Positions 15,996 through 37,802 of a stretch of 39,236 bases of DNA are shown here, piece after piece. Positions within the stretch are counted from its first letter, which is position 1. Every line of letters starts with the position of its first letter. The notes beneath the pieces are model-generated. The model was given only the letters and a program-made list of their open reading frames with translations. It did not search any database and was not told the origin of the DNA. The DNA is from Candidatus Woesearchaeota archaeon (GTDB lineage: Archaea > Nanobdellota > Nanobdellia > Woesearchaeales > GW2011-AR15), in the NCBI GenBank assembly GCA_016935095.1, contig JAFGRO010000063.1, forward strand, positions 1-39,236. The letters are read 5' to 3'. The position numbers and the translations under genes were made by a program.

Positions 15996-17833
15996 TTATT
16001 TTTCTAGATGATACTGAATACTTATGAAGCTTGTCCTTTTCCTGAAATGTATATTTGTCTTTAGTGCCAGCCCTGTCTGGTTGTGCAGAAAATGGTGCCA
16101 TCCTTTTTTTGGAACAAATTCAGGTATAATTACAATGACCTGGAGGTTTGGGTCTCTTTTTTCTATTCTGTCAAGATACGCATTTAATGGGCTTATTAAT
16201 GTCCTGTAAGGAGAATCAACAATATCCAGTTTTACAGGAACATTGAATTTTTTCCAGTATTTGAGCACATTTTCCGTATCCCTGTCTGTTAATTTAAAAT
16301 GTACGGCAATTACCTTATCAGAGAATGTTTTAGCAAAATTCAAAGCTTTTATAATCCCTTTATGAAAAGATGGGACAAGCACTATCAGCAGGTGTTTTTC
16401 TTTTTTAAATCTGATTTTTTTCAGATCTGCTACAGATAGCTGCCCTGCCAGATTAGTATAATGCCCGTGTATTTTTTTAAATATGAACACAAATATCGGA
16501 ATAAGAATAATAATTATCCATGCACCTTCTGTGAATTTTGATACAGCAATTATTATTAAAACAGTAAAGGACATTATTGTTCCAAGAATATTAACCAATG
16601 CAGAAAGTCTCCAATTCCTGCTTTTAAGGGCAAAATGCCTTTTTGTCATACCTGCCTGTGAAAGTGTGAACGATGTAAATACACCAACCGCATAAAGCGG
16701 AATAAGATTGTGGACACTAGCTCCAAACAACACAAGCAATAATGACGCGGACAAACCTAAAAACATAATGCCGTTGGAAAAGACAAGCCTGTCCCCAAGC
16801 CTTTTGAACTGGTTAGGAAGATAATTGTCTTTGGCAAGGAAAAAGCATAATCTGGGAAAGTCAGCAAAACTCGTGTTGGCCGCTAAAAATAATATTAGCA
16901 TTGTACAGGCCTGAAGTACATAGAAGAACATGGTTTTCCCGAAAAGGTTCTCTGCAATAATAGAAACAACAGTCCTTTCAAGAGAAGGAACAATATTCAT
17001 TTTAATCGAGAGGAAAGTTATTCCGAAAAAAAGAACAGAAAGAAGAATTGCCATAGCAAACAGAGTTTTAACAGCATTTTTACTCTCGTCTTTTTTAAAT
17101 GCAAGAACACCATTTGAAACAGCCTCGATACCTGTAAGAGCTACACAGCCTGAGGAAAATGCCCTTAATAGGAAAAAAACTGATGCTCCTGAAACAACTG
17201 TTAACTGGTAGTCAACAACTGCAGGTGTAAGAGTTCCTGTAAAATACCTCATAAATCCAATTAAAATCATTACCAGGAAACTTATTATAAAAAAATATGT
17301 GGGAATTGAGAAGGCTATACCTGATTCCCTGGTACCTTTGAGGTTCATTAATGTTATAAAGCTTATTCCAAAAAGACCAATCAATATTTTGTAAGGTAAG
17401 AGCACAGGGAATGCCGAGCAGGGAATGCCGAGGTCACTGCAGCAACACCGGCAGCAATACTCACAGAAGCTGTGAGCACATAATCAAGGAGTAAGGCACT
17501 TGCAGCAATAAGCCCCGGTATTTCTCCTATATTCTCTTTTGCCACGATATATGCCCCGCCTCCGTTTGGATAGGCTTCAATTGTTTGTTTATATGATATT
17601 ACTAAAATCCAAAGCAGAAATAAAATCACAAGGGAGATTGGCAATGAATTAATCAATGCAGGAATTCCCGCTGTAATCAAAATTAAAAGAATCTCTTCAG
17701 TAGCGTATGCCACTGAAGACAAAGAGTCAGATGAGAAGACAGCAAGTGCTACCTTTTTAGACAGTTTCTGGTGCTTATATTCCCAGTTTGGAAGCGGCTC
17801 TCCAATGATAAGACGCTTGATTTTCCGGATCAT
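15996..17833 (-). pseudogene. kimA-like: KimA/YdaO-like potassium (APC family) transporter, broken by a 14-bp duplication
   Basis: The two frames together encode one APC-superfamily permease. The N-terminal half carries SSDSLSSVAYATEEILLIL, SYKQTIEAYPNGGGAYIVAK and DYVLTASVSIAAGVAAVTSAF, signatures of KimA-like K+ importers. The C-terminal half (from 17405 down) carries NLKGTRESG, further helices, and a cytosolic tail with a universal-stress-like fold. The frame breaks after ...AVTSAFP at a tandem CAGGGAATGCCGAG (17405-17432). Removing one copy gives an uninterrupted 607 codons, the length of B. subtilis KimA. In bacteria this protein is inhibited by c-di-AMP. Upstream, AAATATAAAT is the likely box A. 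The break may be real, phase-variable or an assembly artefact. Confidence 0.85.
17405..17432. repeat. Perfect 14-bp tandem duplication in the KimA-like gene
   Basis: CAGGGAATGCCGAG occurs twice in direct succession (17405-17418, 17419-17432). Fourteen is not a multiple of three, so the second copy shifts the frame. With one copy the reading is AVTSAFPVLLPYKILIG, a smooth APC-family sequence. Confidence 0.92.
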
Positions 17834-17919: not shown

Positions 17920-18014
17920 GCCTCCGTAGCATAGTGGCTATTGCGGCGGACTTGTAGATATTAAAAGATTTTTGAGAAATCCGCAGGTCGTGGGTTCAAG
18001 TCCCATCGGAGGCT
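17920..18014 (+). tRNA. tRNA-Thr(TGT) with a 22-nt intron
   Basis: The acceptor GCCTCCG pairs fully with CGGAGGC, with discriminator U73 as in archaeal tRNA-Thr. The D arm has A14, G18G19 and A21. The anticodon stem GCGGA/TCCGC frames loop C-T-T-G-T-A|A. The T arm is GTGGG TTCAAGT CCCAT. An intron (17957-17978) lies at the canonical 37/38 site: central helix CTTG (17951-17954) with TGAG (17973-17976, two G-U pairs), bulges TA|G and AA|A. Tyr(GTA) was considered because the motif reads ...CTTGTAG; the G1-C72 pair, U73 and the resulting loop length favour Thr. CCA is not encoded. Confidence 0.9.
17957..17978 (+). other. tRNA-Thr intron, position 37/38
   Basis: The intron is 22 nt, A/T-rich, with an inner hairpin AAA-AGAT-TTT (17963-17972). 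The flanking bulge-helix-bulge geometry is regular. Confidence 0.8.
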
Positions 18015-18126: not shown

Positions 18127-18141
18127 TCGGAGGCTTATTCT
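18127..18141 (+). repeat. att-like copy 2, inside the 3' end of the L,D-transpeptidase gene
   Basis: It is an exact 15-bp copy of 18006-18020. The first eight bases lie beyond the neighbouring minus-strand stop and the last seven (18135-18141) encode its final codons and stop. Duplications of a tRNA 3' end are the usual trace of tyrosine-recombinase integration. Confidence 0.65.
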
Positions 18142-18824
18142 TCTATATAAAACTCAAATGGAATATCATCAAAATCTTGTTGTATTGTAACCAAAGTGCC
18201 TACTTCAGCCCAGTCATAGAACCATTCTGCATCATCCAGAGGAAGATTAACACAGCCATGGCTCATTGGATGACCAAAATTATTATGCCAATATGCCCCA
18301 TGGATTGCATATCCTCTTTCTTTGAAATACATAATATGAGGAACACCCTCTAAGTAGTATCCTGGTCCTGACATTGCCCTGGATTCTATTTTTTCAAAAA
18401 TTTTAAAATCACCAGTAGGAGTTGGTGTTGCTGAAAGACCTGCTGACACTAAAGTTGTATATATTACATAAACAGGTGTTCCGTCAAAGCAATTATAAGC
18501 TGCATAAATAGTCTGAGGTTCTTCTAATTCAATATATATAATCCTGCATTTTTCCAAAAGCTGAGGTGTTGGCGTTGGTGTAGATGTTGAAGTAGGTGTA
18601 AAAGTTAGGATTGGTGTAAATGTTGGAGTAACTGTAGGCAAAGGAGTTTGTGTTAGTGTGGGAGTAAAGGTTGCTGTTGGAATTTCTTTTGTAGGTCCAG
18701 AAGTCTGTGTTGGCGTATATTCCTGTGTTAAAATTACAGGAGAACAGGCAGTTAGAAACGCTAATGAACCTGCAAGCGCCATTATTCGTATTATCCTAAT
18801 TGTTTTTTCAAGTGAAGGTATCAT
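18135..18824 (-). CDS. L,D-transpeptidase (YkuD) lipoprotein
   Basis: The 229-residue protein has a lipoprotein signal (lipobox LTAC, Cys27) and a ~60-residue Thr/Pro-repeat spacer (PTPT-type, as in many Chloroflexota lipoproteins). The YkuD domain ends in HGAYWHNNFGHPMSHGCVN. The motif H..(14-17)..[ST]HGC.N supplies the catalytic His189 and Cys191. In bacteria this enzyme crosslinks peptidoglycan through L,D bonds or attaches lipoproteins. Archaea lack murein, so the substrate here is open. TTTATAATT ~25 nt upstream suits a leaderless transcript. The gene ends inside a tRNA-Thr att-like repeat, pointing to lateral gain. Confidence 0.88.
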   Translation of the reverse strand: MIPSLEKTIRIIRIMALAGSLAFLTACSPVILTQEYTPTQTSGPTKEIPTATFTPTLTQTPLPTVTPTFTPILTFTPTSTSTPTPTPQLLEKCRIIYIELEEPQTIYAAYNCFDGTPVYVIYTTLVSAGLSATPTPTGDFKIFEKIESRAMSGPGYYLEGVPHIMYFKERGYAIHGAYWHNNFGHPMSHGCVNLPLDDAEWFYDWAEVGTLVTIQQDFDDIPFEFYIEE

Positions 18825-33090: not shown

Positions 33091-33783
33091 ATGAAATTGA
33101 AAAAAATAATCTTATTAATTTTAATTAATATATTATTATTACAGATAAGCTATGCTGCAACAATCCACGGAACTGTTTATGATATCTCTCTTAAAAAAGT
33201 TAAAAATATTATTGTTGAAGTAAATTCTTCTCCTAATCAAAGATATTTAGCTGCAGAAGGGACTTATTCTTTTGAATTAGCAAGAGGAGATTACCAGATT
33301 ACTTCAATATATGAAAATGCTGATATAAAAATGAGCACAATTGAAAACATCACTATTTCAGATGAAGGGGATTATGTGCTTGATTTGTTCCTGTTTCCTG
33401 ATTTGGAGGAAGAAGAATCTCTTTTTGAGGATATTGATTTTGATATCTCAGCCCCGTTTGAAAAAAGATTTAATCTAAGTGTATTGATTCTGCCTTTGGC
33501 TTTACTGATGCTATTTACACTGGTATTATTATTTTTAAGATTAAAAAGAATTGTAAAAAATGAACAGGTTATTGAAGAGAAATTACTTGACAATAATATC
33601 AAGGACATTGTTGTTCTCCTGGAAAAGAATAAGGGAAGAATGACCCAGAAACAAATCAGAAAAGAGATACCTTTATCCGAGGCAAAAATCAGTTTGATGA
33701 TTGCTGAACTTGAATCTCTCGGAAAGATCAGGAAGATTAAGAAAGGGAGAGGGAATATAATTATACTGGAGAAAAAACAGTAA
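33091..33783 (+). CDS. Transmembrane one-component regulator (outside beta domain, inside winged helix)
   Basis: The 230-residue protein has a signal peptide (cleavage near SYA|ATI), a carboxypeptidase-regulatory-like beta domain (TIHGTVYDISLKKVKNIIVE, residues ~23-95), an acidic stalk, one membrane helix (~130-150), and a cytosolic winged helix (KNKGRMTQKQIRKEIPLSEA, then KISLMIAELESLGKIRKIKK). It thus links an outside sensor domain to a DNA-binding domain in one chain. This layout is known in archaea but is rare in bacteria outside ToxR-type proteins. Possible targets: the neighbouring HNH-repeat gene or itself. Confidence 0.78.
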   Translation: MKLKKIILLILINILLLQISYAATIHGTVYDISLKKVKNIIVEVNSSPNQRYLAAEGTYSFELARGDYQITSIYENADIKMSTIENITISDEGDYVLDLFLFPDLEEEESLFEDIDFDISAPFEKRFNLSVLILPLALLMLFTLVLLFLRLKRIVKNEQVIEEKLLDNNIKDIVVLLEKNKGRMTQKQIRKEIPLSEAKISLMIAELESLGKIRKIKKGRGNIIILEKKQ

Positions 33784-33823: not shown

Positions 33824-34231
33824 ATGAGAAGATACACAAAAGAGCAGCTCATACATTTCTTAAAAAAACTCAGTAAAGAATTAAAAAAAACACCTACTGC
33901 TGACGACATAAATAAAAAGAAAAAATATCCCTGCAGCTCTACTTATGTTAACAGGTTCGGCTCATGGAATAATGCTTTAAAACAGGCAGGCCTGAAATTA
34001 AATATTTTTTTTCATTATAATAAAAAAGAGCTTATCGATAATCTGAAACAGATTTACAAGGAATTAGGCCGGGTTCCTAAATCAAAAGACATTAAGGGCA
34101 AAAAATGGATGGCTTCTTATTCCACATATAAAAAATATTTCGGCTCATGGAATAATGCCCTGAACAAAGCAGGGATTAAAAAAACAAGCGAGTATAATTC
34201 TTTGAGAGAGTTCATTAAAAAAAAGAAGTAA
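33824..34231 (+). CDS. Protein of two homing-endonuclease-associated repeats
   Basis: The 135 residues are two similar ~53-residue units, ending RFGSWNNALKQAG and YFGSWNNALNKAG. They match the HNH-associated repeat (HNH_repeat type) found beside HNH nucleases as a DNA-binding helix bundle. No HNH catalytic motif is present. It probably binds DNA on its own. A TTTAAATAATT box lies ~30 nt upstream of the start, suggesting a leaderless transcript. Confidence 0.8.
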   Translation: MRRYTKEQLIHFLKKLSKELKKTPTADDINKKKKYPCSSTYVNRFGSWNNALKQAGLKLNIFFHYNKKELIDNLKQIYKELGRVPKSKDIKGKKWMASYSTYKKYFGSWNNALNKAGIKKTSEYNSLREFIKKKK

Positions 34232-34235
34232 TAAA

Positions 34236-34508
34236 TTATTTTTCTATGTGATTTTCTCTTTTATTTATATCCTTCTTATAAGAAAAAAAACTTATACTTC
34301 CATAAATAAACATCAACGCACCTATAAATATTGAAATTACTGCAATTATTCTTGAAGCCCAAGAATCTATAAATTTAATCAGGATCAAACCGACACCAAC
34401 AAAAGCCAACGCTGTCCTCCAGAATGCAAGGAGTGTTCTTTCATTGGCAAGATGTGTCCTCTGGAATGCCAATTTGTCACGGGTTGCGTCTTTGATATTA
34501 TTTTTCAC
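34236..34508 (-). CDS. DUF202 membrane protein (YidH-like)
   Basis: The 90-residue protein has two membrane helices after a RTHLANERTLLAFWRTALAF segment, the DUF202 hallmark (LAxERTxLAxxRTxLA). Both ends should be inside. The cellular role is unknown; it is widely shared across bacteria and archaea. The stop is 4 bp from the convergent HNH-repeat stop. Confidence 0.88.
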   Translation of the reverse strand: MKNNIKDATRDKLAFQRTHLANERTLLAFWRTALAFVGVGLILIKFIDSWASRIIAVISIFIGALMFIYGSISFFSYKKDINKRENHIEK

Positions 34509-34561
34509 TATACTAATATTATTAAACTTATTATTTATATAGTTTTTTATAATGTATTAAA

Positions 34562-35560
34562 ATGGCTAAGAAAAGTTTAGAAGGCTTACTGGAAAAACTT
34601 GACCTGGAAAAATTACCTGAATCAATTGAACCCGAGAGCCTAGATGTGAAAGTCCTAATACAACTGGCACATACAAGACCTTATGAATATAAAGAATATC
34701 CAAAAAATCTATCAAAAGAGGCTTTTGATGAATTATATAGAAAATTTCCCAGTAAATCAAAATTAAATGGTTTAGATAGTTCTGATCTTTTACATATAGC
34801 ACAAATAGATCCTTATTTACCTTATCTTGGACAAAAATTACCTCTTAAAAATAAAAAGTTCCTTCCAATAAGAGCATTTGATATTTTTTATGAAAGATAT
34901 GCAAGCGAAAGCATTGATTTGCAAATGTTTGGTGATTCTGACCTGCTCTGGATTGCAAAAGCTGATGCAAAGAGATATAATTTACAGGAAAAACCAGATA
35001 TTCCGGGAGATGCTTTTGGAAAATTATTTGAAAGATATGTTGAACTTATTTATTCATATATTTACCGGAGGGTCGGAAACCAGGAGGATACAAAGGATTT
35101 AGTTTCAAAAACATTTTACAGAGCTTTAAAATCTCTTCCCGGATATAATGACAGAGGCGCTCCTTACAGCGCTTTTCTATATAGAATCGCCCATAATCTG
35201 GTTGCAAATTTTCACAGGGACAGAGCAAGAAGACCTTTATTGATGTCAATTGACCCTGCTGATGACAGTGATGAAAATGAATTTCCTTTAATAAAAAGCC
35301 TGCAATCAGAGGATTTAGGACCTGAAGAGGTAGTTGAAAGAATAGGAGAGAATTTACCTCTCATGGAAGCTCTCAGCAAATTATCTCCTGACAGACAGGA
35401 ATTATTAAAATTAAAATTTGAAGATGGATTGAGCAATGCTGAGATTGCCTCAATCATCGGAAAAAGTGAAGGCGCAGTAAAGTCTTTATATCACAGGACA
35501 CTTGAAGAATTAAGGAAGATATATCAGGCTAATGATCTTCCTAATTTAAGTTTTCAGTAA
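34562..35560 (+). CDS. Sigma-70/ECF-like protein with repeated N-terminal domain
   Basis: The 332-residue protein. Residues ~151-225 match sigma region 2: FGKLFERYVELIYSYIYRRV, DTKDLVSKTFYRALKSLPGY, then FLYRIAHNLVANFHRDRARR (promoter -10 recognition and core binding). Residues ~263-321 match region 4: LSKLSPDRQELLKLKFEDGL, SNAEIASIIGKSEGAVKSLY (HTH). No region 3 is present, as in ECF sigmas. Residues ~28-63, 72-114 and 125-159 repeat a ~40-residue pattern (DLL.IA..dp..y..., lp..AFd.lyeRy), and the third unit runs into region 2. Bacterial RNA polymerase is absent from archaea, so the partner is unknown. A TM protein follows at 31 nt. Function is inference. Confidence 0.88.
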   Translation: MAKKSLEGLLEKLDLEKLPESIEPESLDVKVLIQLAHTRPYEYKEYPKNLSKEAFDELYRKFPSKSKLNGLDSSDLLHIAQIDPYLPYLGQKLPLKNKKFLPIRAFDIFYERYASESIDLQMFGDSDLLWIAKADAKRYNLQEKPDIPGDAFGKLFERYVELIYSYIYRRVGNQEDTKDLVSKTFYRALKSLPGYNDRGAPYSAFLYRIAHNLVANFHRDRARRPLLMSIDPADDSDENEFPLIKSLQSEDLGPEEVVERIGENLPLMEALSKLSPDRQELLKLKFEDGLSNAEIASIIGKSEGAVKSLYHRTLEELRKIYQANDLPNLSFQ

Positions 35561-35590: not shown

Positions 35591-36097
35591 ATGATTATGA
35601 ATAGGAAAAAAAAGAAAAGAATAAAATTTTTATTTATTCTAATAGCGGTGAATATTCTGTTAGTTTCTGTGTTTGTATATGTTTATCTTAATAAAACAAA
35701 TAAAAAAATCTTTACTGGAGATACAGACAAACTCAGGATTGTTGATTATTCTGTAAGGACAAGATGGCTTGACCAGGAAGAATATGTTTATGCAGACGGA
35801 TTTATTAATAATTACCCAAGAAATTCAGATGAAGTAAGCTATATTGTAAACGGCAGCATAGAAAATATTGCAGGAAAAGATATTGAAAGATTTAAGTTTT
35901 CCATTAATTTCCGATATAATGAAAACCCAGGAGAATATACTTCTTTAAGTACGATTATAAATGATTTGGCTGATAAAGAGACAAAAGAGTTTACAGGAAC
36001 ACTTAACAGGGAAGATTCCCCTGTTTTTAACAAAATCTATTTTGTGACATTTGACACAAGCATTTCTGACTTGAACATATTTCCAGAAGAAGAGTAG
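35591..36097 (+). CDS. Membrane-anchored extracytoplasmic protein next to the sigma gene
   Basis: The 168-residue protein has a basic start (NRKKKKRIK), one membrane helix (~13-33) and an outside beta-rich domain with YADGFINNYPRNSDEV and related strands (FxxLN/DUF-type). Its cytoplasmic part is too short (~12 residues) for a normal anti-sigma domain. Its start may be 35591 or the in-frame ATG at 35597. It lies 31 nt after the sigma-like gene, so both may be in one operon. It could be a sensor partner or a target gene. Confidence 0.6.
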   Translation: MIMNRKKKKRIKFLFILIAVNILLVSVFVYVYLNKTNKKIFTGDTDKLRIVDYSVRTRWLDQEEYVYADGFINNYPRNSDEVSYIVNGSIENIAGKDIERFKFSINFRYNENPGEYTSLSTIINDLADKETKEFTGTLNREDSPVFNKIYFVTFDTSISDLNIFPEEE

Positions 36098-36098
36098 C

Positions 36099-37802
36099 TC
36101 ATGTCCTTTTAAACATTTTTTCTAATTCCCTGAATGTAAATTTAATTAATATGGGCCTGCCGTGGGGGCATGTATATGAGATCTCTTTTTTGTCAAGGCT
36201 TTGCAAATAATCCCTTATCTGGTGCATTGTCAGTTCCTCCCCTGCTTTCACTGCTGATCTGCATGCCATCCTGGCAATCCTTTCATTTTTTAATTCATCA
36301 ATTGTTTTTGTTTTCTCAGCAGAGTCTAATTCTGAAATTATGTCCAGAATCATTTCTTTATTAACCTGTTTTCCAAGCACGCTCGGCAGTGTACTGATAA
36401 TAAATTCATTTTTTCCAAATGGTTCGAGTTCAAAACCAATTTCTTTTAAAAATTCCAGGTTAGATTCTAAAATAAGATGTTTCTTTGGGTCCAATTCAAT
36501 GAGCAAAGGGTTTAATAATTTCTGGACCTGGATTTTTTTGTTATAAAACTGCTCCATGAATTTTTCATAAAGGATCCTTTCAGCGGCAGCGTGCTGGTCG
36601 ATGATAATCAGCTCGTCTTTTGTCTCTCCCAGTATATATGTTTTATTGACAATGCCGTGAATCACCATCTCAGGCAGTTTTTTTAAGGATATATCACTTG
36701 TTTCTGATAATGTTTTCTGCTTATGTTTTTGCAAAGCATATGCTGATGAAGGCTCTTTGACCTTTAATTTAGGATATTCAGCAGGAGTTCTAAGTCTCAT
36801 ATCAGGAATCAGATCATTTTCCAGGAGAGTCTGCCTTACAGCTTCAAATACAACATCATATATCTCTTTTTCCCTTTCGAGCTTGACTTCAGATTTGGCA
36901 GGGTGCACATTTACATCAATTTTAGAAGGGTCAATGCTGATGTTTAGAACCGCAACAGGATACCTGTTAATGAACATTAAAGTATGGTATGCATTGTTCA
37001 ATGCATCTGATATTGTCTTGTTTTTTATATATCTCCTGTTTATGTATATTGACTGGTCTGACTTTGTTGATTTATTTAAGTTCGGCTTAGATATAAATCC
37101 CATTATTTCAATTAAACCAGAGGAGAAATTGACTGGAAGCATGTCTTTGGCAATATTCCTCCCGTAGATATAGCTGAGATTTGCCTGGGTGTTTGATGTA
37201 GAGGGCGAATTCAATAATTCCTTGTTATTGTGAACAAGTTTAAAATGGATTTCAGGATGGATTAATGCGTATCTCTGCACTATGTCTATTATATGGTTAA
37301 GCTCTATCTGCATAGGTCTCATGTATTTTTTTCTTGCAGGCGTGTTATAAAAAAGATTATTTATCTCAACTGTTGTGCCTTTTGGGCAGCCTGTTTTTTC
37401 TTCTGAGATTAATCTGCCTGCTTTGTATGTTAATTTAATTCCATGAGGATTGTTCTGTTGCTTGGTTGTTAATATCAGTTCAGAAACAGCAGCCATGCTT
37501 GCTAAAGCCTCTCCCCTGAAACCTAAAGTTGAGATATTAAACAGGTCATCTGTCTTTGAGATTTTGCTTGTAGAGTGCCTTAAACAGGCTTTTTTTGCGT
37601 TGTTTTCATTCATTCCAAAACCATTATCCTGGACTTTAATATATGACTTGCCGCCTTCTTTAATCTCAATAAAGATATTGTCAGCTCCAGCATCAATAGA
37701 ATTCTCTATCAGTTCCTTGACAATGCTTTTAGGCCTTTCAATAACTTCTCCGGCTGCTATCTTGTTTATCAGCGATTCATCAAGAATAATTATATCATTC
37801 AT
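36099..37802 (-). CDS. mutL: DNA mismatch repair protein MutL, endonuclease type
   Basis: The 567-residue protein has a GHKL ATPase domain: KIAAGEVIERPKSIVKELIE, NSIDAGAD, VQDNGFGM and STLGFRGEALASM. A linker follows, then a C-terminal dimerisation/endonuclease domain with DQHAAAERILYE (DQHA(X)2E(X)4E, ~residues 400-411) and the ACRSAVKAGE and CPHGRP motifs. It nicks DNA after MutS detects a mismatch. No mutS is in the window. Archaeal MutL homologues are unusual and probably acquired from bacteria. The convergent neighbour stops 1 nt before its stop. Confidence 0.95.
   Translation of the reverse strand: MNDIIILDESLINKIAAGEVIERPKSIVKELIENSIDAGADNIFIEIKEGGKSYIKVQDNGFGMNENNAKKACLRHSTSKISKTDDLFNISTLGFRGEALASMAAVSELILTTKQQNNPHGIKLTYKAGRLISEEKTGCPKGTTVEINNLFYNTPARKKYMRPMQIELNHIIDIVQRYALIHPEIHFKLVHNNKELLNSPSTSNTQANLSYIYGRNIAKDMLPVNFSSGLIEIMGFISKPNLNKSTKSDQSIYINRRYIKNKTISDALNNAYHTLMFINRYPVAVLNISIDPSKIDVNVHPAKSEVKLEREKEIYDVVFEAVRQTLLENDLIPDMRLRTPAEYPKLKVKEPSSAYALQKHKQKTLSETSDISLKKLPEMVIHGIVNKTYILGETKDELIIIDQHAAAERILYEKFMEQFYNKKIQVQKLLNPLLIELDPKKHLILESNLEFLKEIGFELEPFGKNEFIISTLPSVLGKQVNKEMILDIISELDSAEKTKTIDELKNERIARMACRSAVKAGEELTMHQIRDYLQSLDKKEISYTCPHGRPILIKFTFRELEKMFKRT

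Follow-up and report, generated by a model that had tools for sequence, protein, structure and literature searches.

An Anaerolineae-type ECF sigma factor with an enlarged N-terminus in a Woesearchaeota archaeon

Introduction

The first archaeal sigma factors are attributed to Rinke et al. in the statement of PMC6126073 that cites them. Castelle et al. 2021 (PMC8204110) subsequently reported that sigma-70 genes are particularly prevalent in Woesearchaeota, excluded mis-binning as their origin, found no anti-sigma factor and left the mechanism open. A 2025 paper (PMC12316311) still describes archaea as being without sigma factors.

In the order to which the present host belongs, sigma region 2 was detected in 140 of 353 genomes (40%), 136 of these above the cut-off. 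The order includes RpoD-like proteins with textbook region 2 sequences as well as more than 20 divergent extracytoplasmic function (ECF) sigma factors. Many of its genomes (L009–L038, L063–L077) encode RpoD-like sigmas with intact region 2 segments and a C-terminal region 4, and some of these genes lie on very large contigs (e.g. G194:C2, 1.47 Mb). Two loci, L073 (G185:C56) and L074 (G186:C28), carry three region-2 matches in tandem, every match in a frame of ~480–495 residues. Judged by their sequences, the RpoD-like proteins are far more canonical than the ECF protein described here. The uniqueness implied by the initial annotation of this DNA, which had singled out a sigma-like factor in an archaeal chromosome, thus does not hold, given the earlier reports and the frequency of region 2 in the order.

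We analysed a stretch of 39,236 nucleotides (hereafter the window), contig JAFGRO010000063.1 of the Candidatus Woesearchaeota assembly GCA_016935095.1. Its sigma gene differs from those above in that donor, donor promoter and subsequent remodelling can be proposed from comparison with bacterial relatives.

An ECF sigma-70 gene in an archaeal genome

The following features define the gene:

34562..35560, + strand: ECF sigma-70 protein, 332 aa, matched by Pfam, NCBIfam and PDB; the single sigma gene found in the genome
35024..35233, + strand: sigma region 2 (Pfam PF04542 on the DNA)
35360..35512, + strand: sigma region 4, helix-turn-helix (Pfam PF08281, residues 267–317)

The open reading frame extends exactly from the ATG at 34562 to the stop at 35560, and the chance of a 332-codon open frame in DNA of 33% GC is ~8e-12. 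Consistent with the proposal that regions 2 and 4 of an ECF sigma factor are present, both Pfam domains scored above their cut-offs (Sigma70_r2 at residues 155–224, E 1.2e-15; Sigma70_r4_2 at residues 267–317, E 2.5e-14), the NCBIfam sigma70-ECF model matched with 101 bits against a cut-off of 43, and 22 of 22 PDB sequence matches were sigma factors, headed by BldN (6dxo, 2e-24). The two are the only Pfam domains of the protein, regions 1.1 and 3 being absent, and they are separated by a linker of 42 residues. In the predicted structure both sigma2 and sigma4 are modelled with a pLDDT of about 65–90, and the top PDB fold matches of the model are ECF sigmas. The frame encodes a genuine ECF sigma-70 protein. 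In bacteria, region 2 recognises the -10 element and binds the polymerase clamp, while region 4 recognises the -35 element. The host genome (1.77 Mb in 82 contigs, 95% complete) contains one region-2 match, that of the window gene.

The surroundings of the gene are archaeal, as had been claimed on stylistic grounds:

33091..33783, + strand: DUF7343 winged-helix membrane protein, an archaeal flank shared across the family
33824..34231, + strand: HNH_repeat protein, an archaeal flank kept close to DUF7343 within the genus
34236..34508, - strand: DUF202 small membrane protein, divergent to the sigma gene
36099..37802, - strand: MutL, archaeal flank, 59–65% identity in congeners
17920..18014, + strand: sole tRNA that Rfam detects in the window; with introns allowed, ARAGORN assigns it to tRNA-Ser and proposes a 22-nt intron

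The DUF7343, HNH-repeat and MutL genes are 54–65% identical to single genes in both congeneric archaea, and DUF7343 and MutL are present across the archaeal family. The sigma gene is absent from both congeners. In one of them (G002) DUF7343 and HNH are adjacent and the sigma slot is taken by an unrelated gene; in the other (G001) both are present with one ORF between them and another unrelated gene next. Neither congener provides a clean empty site, the DUF7343-HNH pair and MutL being on separate contigs. The host genome encodes TFB, which a search of 14 control genomes matched in archaea only, and the same stretch carries genes that by eye resemble those for aIF5A, glycyl-tRNA synthetase and an archaeal release factor. 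The "tRNA introns" cited as archaeal traits reduce to the one proposed intron, since the plural rests on a single tRNA. The sigma gene itself lies at the 66th percentile of host genes in codon score, and its GC3 is 0.23, as against 0.67–0.81 in three Anaerolineae homologues.

Other features of the contig were noted in passing. A tyrosine-integrase-like protein (421–1617, + strand; PHROG integrase) at the left end may mark an integrated element; the first 11 kb, in which this element would lie, have a lower GC content (mostly 24–32%). An amino-acid permease/KUP-like transporter (15996–17833, - strand) is split into overlapping frames (15996–17405 and 17381–17833) by either a frameshift or a sequencing error.

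Affiliation with Anaerolineae

Exact-pattern searches of genome contigs recovered no relative of the whole sigma protein, nor did a similarly pattern-limited search of viral contigs; the family was reached only by alignment search. An alignment-guided scan of genome contigs placed two Anaerolineae proteins first (48–49% identity), ahead of Streptomyces BldN (36–38%). Of 298 Anaerolineae genomes, 255 contained the family at E<=1e-35, almost always as a single match, with identities of up to 60%. In a maximum-likelihood tree that also took in Actinomycetota, other Chloroflexota ECFs and 22 other archaeal ECFs, the window protein grouped with 32 sampled Anaerolineae proteins (support 100/96, the bootstrap not having fully settled), apart from all the others; the 32 proteins formed a clade (97/88) beside it. 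One Anaerolineae match (G528:C150:4220-4891) aligns from query residue 97, and its low overall identity suggests a chance extension.

These relationships place the window gene in an Anaerolineae-derived ECF subfamily. Members of this Chloroflexota family (CP059258.1, JAFGRA010000096.1, L213–L242) are up to 60% identical to the archaeal copy in regions 2 and 4 and share with it the motifs HNLVAN.HRD and SEGA.KSLYHRTL. At E<=1e-12 the subfamily occurs in just one of the 371 genomes sampled from the archaeal phylum, that of the window, which makes bacterium to archaeon the simple direction of transfer. On the plain reading of this distribution, from which the direction is inferred, the gene would have come from Anaerolineae or from an unsampled sister line.

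The same contig also encodes an L,D-transpeptidase (YkuD), a lipoprotein whose linker is rich in Thr and Pro (18135–18824, - strand) and which is codon-adapted to the host. Close homologues occur in 126 of 150 Anaerolineae genomes, and it is a peptidoglycan-type enzyme of bacterial ancestry.

Promoters and membrane partners

Anaerolineae sigma genes are preceded by a strict bipartite element, CGCAAC-N14-GGTGTT, which looks like an autoregulated ECF promoter. It is present at 10 or more of 12 matching positions in ~28 of 32 genes, always with a 14-base spacer and mostly 16–85 bases upstream of the first coding stretch; its core pairs occur in 16 of 29 sequences, as against at most 4 in shuffles. 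At the archaeal locus the element is absent, the best local site scoring 5.3 of 24.1 and not lying upstream of the gene. Instead, the gene is preceded by an archaeal element:

34534..34541, + strand: TATA box TTTATATA, 28 bp upstream of the ATG, a leaderless-type position

TATA-like words peak at the same position upstream of other genes in the host genome. When 1.09 Mb (62%) of that genome was scanned with a matrix of the donor promoter, 129 sites reached a score of at least 8, compared with 94–120 in Markov copies, with no outlier site and no enrichment; a regulon of donor-type promoters is rejected for this 62%. The donor motif also failed to reveal the promoter pair that the initial annotation had suggested looking for upstream of the gene at 35591.

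This downstream gene follows the sigma gene after a gap of 30 bp:

35591..36097, + strand: probable operon partner of 168 aa; a single membrane helix at the N-terminus precedes an external FxLYD-like domain

The FxLYD-like match (E 0.016) is below the cut-off. Read from the sequence, the product has only ~11 residues on the cytoplasmic side, too few to accommodate an anti-sigma domain, and it is rejected as an anti-sigma factor on this topology. In Anaerolineae, by comparison, the gene behind many of the sigma genes, frequently overlapping them by 4 bases, encodes a ~120-aa protein consisting of a cytoplasmic part and one membrane helix, which is probably an anti-sigma factor. The archaeal neighbour is unrelated to this protein and has the opposite layout, and the suggestion that it is the sensor of the sigma factor is accordingly weak. 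No anti-sigma factor was found adjacent to the archaeal sigma gene; such adjacency is common among ECFs but not universal.

An enlarged N-terminal region

Residues 1–145, on which the initial annotation is silent, are the most unusual part of the protein, and a search for them in 353 genomes of the order yielded no convincing homologue (best other E 0.01). They contain two degenerate hairpin copies, ahead of the native hairpin that runs on into region 2:

34640..34748, + strand: N-terminal repeat 1, ~residues 27–62, a degenerate hairpin copy (LDVKVLIQLAH..AFDELYRKF)
34772..34904, + strand: N-terminal repeat 2, ~residues 71–114 (SSDLLHIAQIDPY..AFDIFYERY)
34931..35041, + strand: native ECF N-terminal hairpin, ~residues 124–160, with a loop insertion of ~13 residues (KRYNLQEKPDIPG)

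The repeats follow the hairpin pattern D.LL.IA..DP...AF..LYERY. None of 2000 shuffles matched repeat 2 to the native hairpin as well as the real sequence, and 3 of 2000 did so for repeat 1 against repeat 2. A low-confidence model places helices at residues 29–37 and 52–60 in repeat 1 and at 73–82 and 103–115 in repeat 2, the pLDDT of the N-terminal part being mostly <50. The 32 Anaerolineae frames of the family that were read comprise ~180–260 residues and lack the N-terminal repeats, and in alignment the insertion KRYNLQEKPDIPG is absent from all 32. At the position of the insertion in the native hairpin, both extra copies likewise have a long loop, which suggests that insertion came first and duplication second. 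A start at Met122, which would yield a protein of bacterial length, is less likely, since the upstream 121 codons are open (chance ~9e-5), built of repeats and placed behind a correctly spaced TATA box.

Conserved surfaces and proposed function

Relative to the Anaerolineae consensus, the segments that contact DNA are well preserved. Region 2.4 is identical at 17 of 19 positions and keeps 15 of 16 conserved positions, and region 4.2 keeps 19 of 23. Region 2.2, through which bacterial sigmas bind the polymerase clamp, retains 8 of 13, the lowest of the segments. The better retention of DNA contacts than of region 2.2 is only suggestive (Fisher p 0.053).

We posit, with confidence slightly better than even, that the gene is an acquired Anaerolineae ECF sigma domesticated as a DNA-binding regulator within the archaeal system. 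A domesticated regulator with few targets is favoured because the DNA contacts are kept and donor promoters are not in excess in the host. Phylogeny and sequence identity show the tie to Anaerolineae, from which an ancestor of the archaeon would long ago have acquired the gene before domesticating it: its codon usage is that of the host, an archaeal TATA box stands where the donors have their promoter-like element, the downstream membrane partner of the donors is missing, and a front end has been added in which the N-terminal hairpin is lengthened and copied twice. The gene would now be transcribed by the TBP/TFB-dependent polymerase, and its product, binding DNA through the retained surfaces of regions 2.4 and 4.2, may regulate a few archaeal promoters in a sequence-specific manner. 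Region 2 could dock at a site shared with TFE, the clamp coiled-coil of the archaeal polymerase. Anti-sigmas can cover a part of sigma region 2 that the N-terminal hairpins resemble, and these hairpins may stand in for the anti-sigma that was lost, either as an internal switch or as a partner-binding module. The missing cognate promoters are awkward for this proposal if DNA specificity is retained, and imply either very few targets or contacts kept only for folding. Among the three options first offered for the protein (a repurposed DNA-binding regulator, a decoy, or a partner of a viral or bacterial polymerase), the first fits best; a bacterial polymerase inside the cell is unsupported, because the beta-subunit-specific domain PF10385 was not found in the host genome.

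A more far-reaching reading, which we regard as unlikely while giving it real weight, is that the protein is a true alternative initiation factor: bound to the archaeal polymerase, it would initiate transcription from -35/-10 promoters of its own, independently of TBP/TFB, and the hairpins would adapt it to the archaeal clamp. Duplicated hairpins and a changed clamp-binding segment would then reflect an ECF re-fitted to the archaeal polymerase as an initiation or co-initiation factor, a hybrid of two systems. The nearly unchanged regions 2.4 and 4.2 and the new front end agree with this, as does region 2.2 being the most changed conserved segment, which would be expected if the polymerase contact had been re-fitted (p 0.053). 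However, donor-type promoters are not in excess in the 62% of the genome scanned and none is found at the gene's own locus, and archaeal polymerases are not known to offer region 4 the flap-tip contact that it has in bacteria.

That the acquisition is decaying or functionally neutral seems distinctly unlikely. Its occurrence in only one of the sampled genomes, its absence from both congeners and the loss of partner and promoter are what a passing acquisition might leave behind, but the codons are fully ameliorated over an intact 332-codon frame, and in the time that this takes, the frame of a neutral gene should have been disrupted. The sigma core is moreover still 50–60% identical to the donors, and the TATA box is well placed.

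Still less probable, to a degree that leaves it little credence, is export of the protein to act on the bacterial polymerase of another cell, for instance an Anaerolineae partner of a small symbiotic archaeon. This would account for donor DNA contacts being kept although the host genome lacks cognate promoters, and the L,D-transpeptidase lipoprotein, as a second Anaerolineae-like gene on the contig, suggests contact with such bacteria; a signal peptide or export signal is, however, not evident in the sequence, and there is no known delivery route.

Least probable of all is contamination or a chimeric contig, for although the assembly is in 82 contigs and the gene is of bacterial ancestry, the archaeal flanks on both sides together with host-like codon usage and GC3 make a recent contaminant or chimera very unlikely, the promoter is archaeal, and the Anaerolineae homologues checked have a GC content of 55–64%.

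Sigma genes have been known in archaea since the first single-cell genomes, and this probably domesticated Anaerolineae sigma offers a concrete test of their role: the donor can be traced, its promoter and partner are defined and the changes after transfer are on record, which makes the role of a sigma factor in an archaeon directly testable. The case suggests a route by which a bacterial initiation factor may be fitted into a TBP/TFB system, and it bears on how separate the bacterial and archaeal initiation machineries really are.

Comparison with known systems

The nearest described counterpart among archaea, likened here by description, is the DPANN family fam00359 (PMC8204110), which likewise comprises sigma-70 proteins encoded in archaeal chromosomes with TBP/TFB and with no anti-sigma found. 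Most sigmas of the host's order are RpoD-like proteins of 400–700 aa or other ECFs, whereas the window protein belongs to an Anaerolineae-derived ECF subfamily. Among characterised bacterial families, BldN (TIGR02952; 6dxo, the RsbN-BldN structure) provides both the best NCBIfam match (141.3 bits) and the best PDB sequence match, but the score falls below the TIGR02952 cut-off of 206.45 bits and so leaves the window protein outside that family; identity to BldN is 36–40%, and its Actinomycetota members fall into a clade of their own. Archaeal sigma genes as such had been reported before, and what is new here is the donor, the donor promoter and the remodelled architecture.
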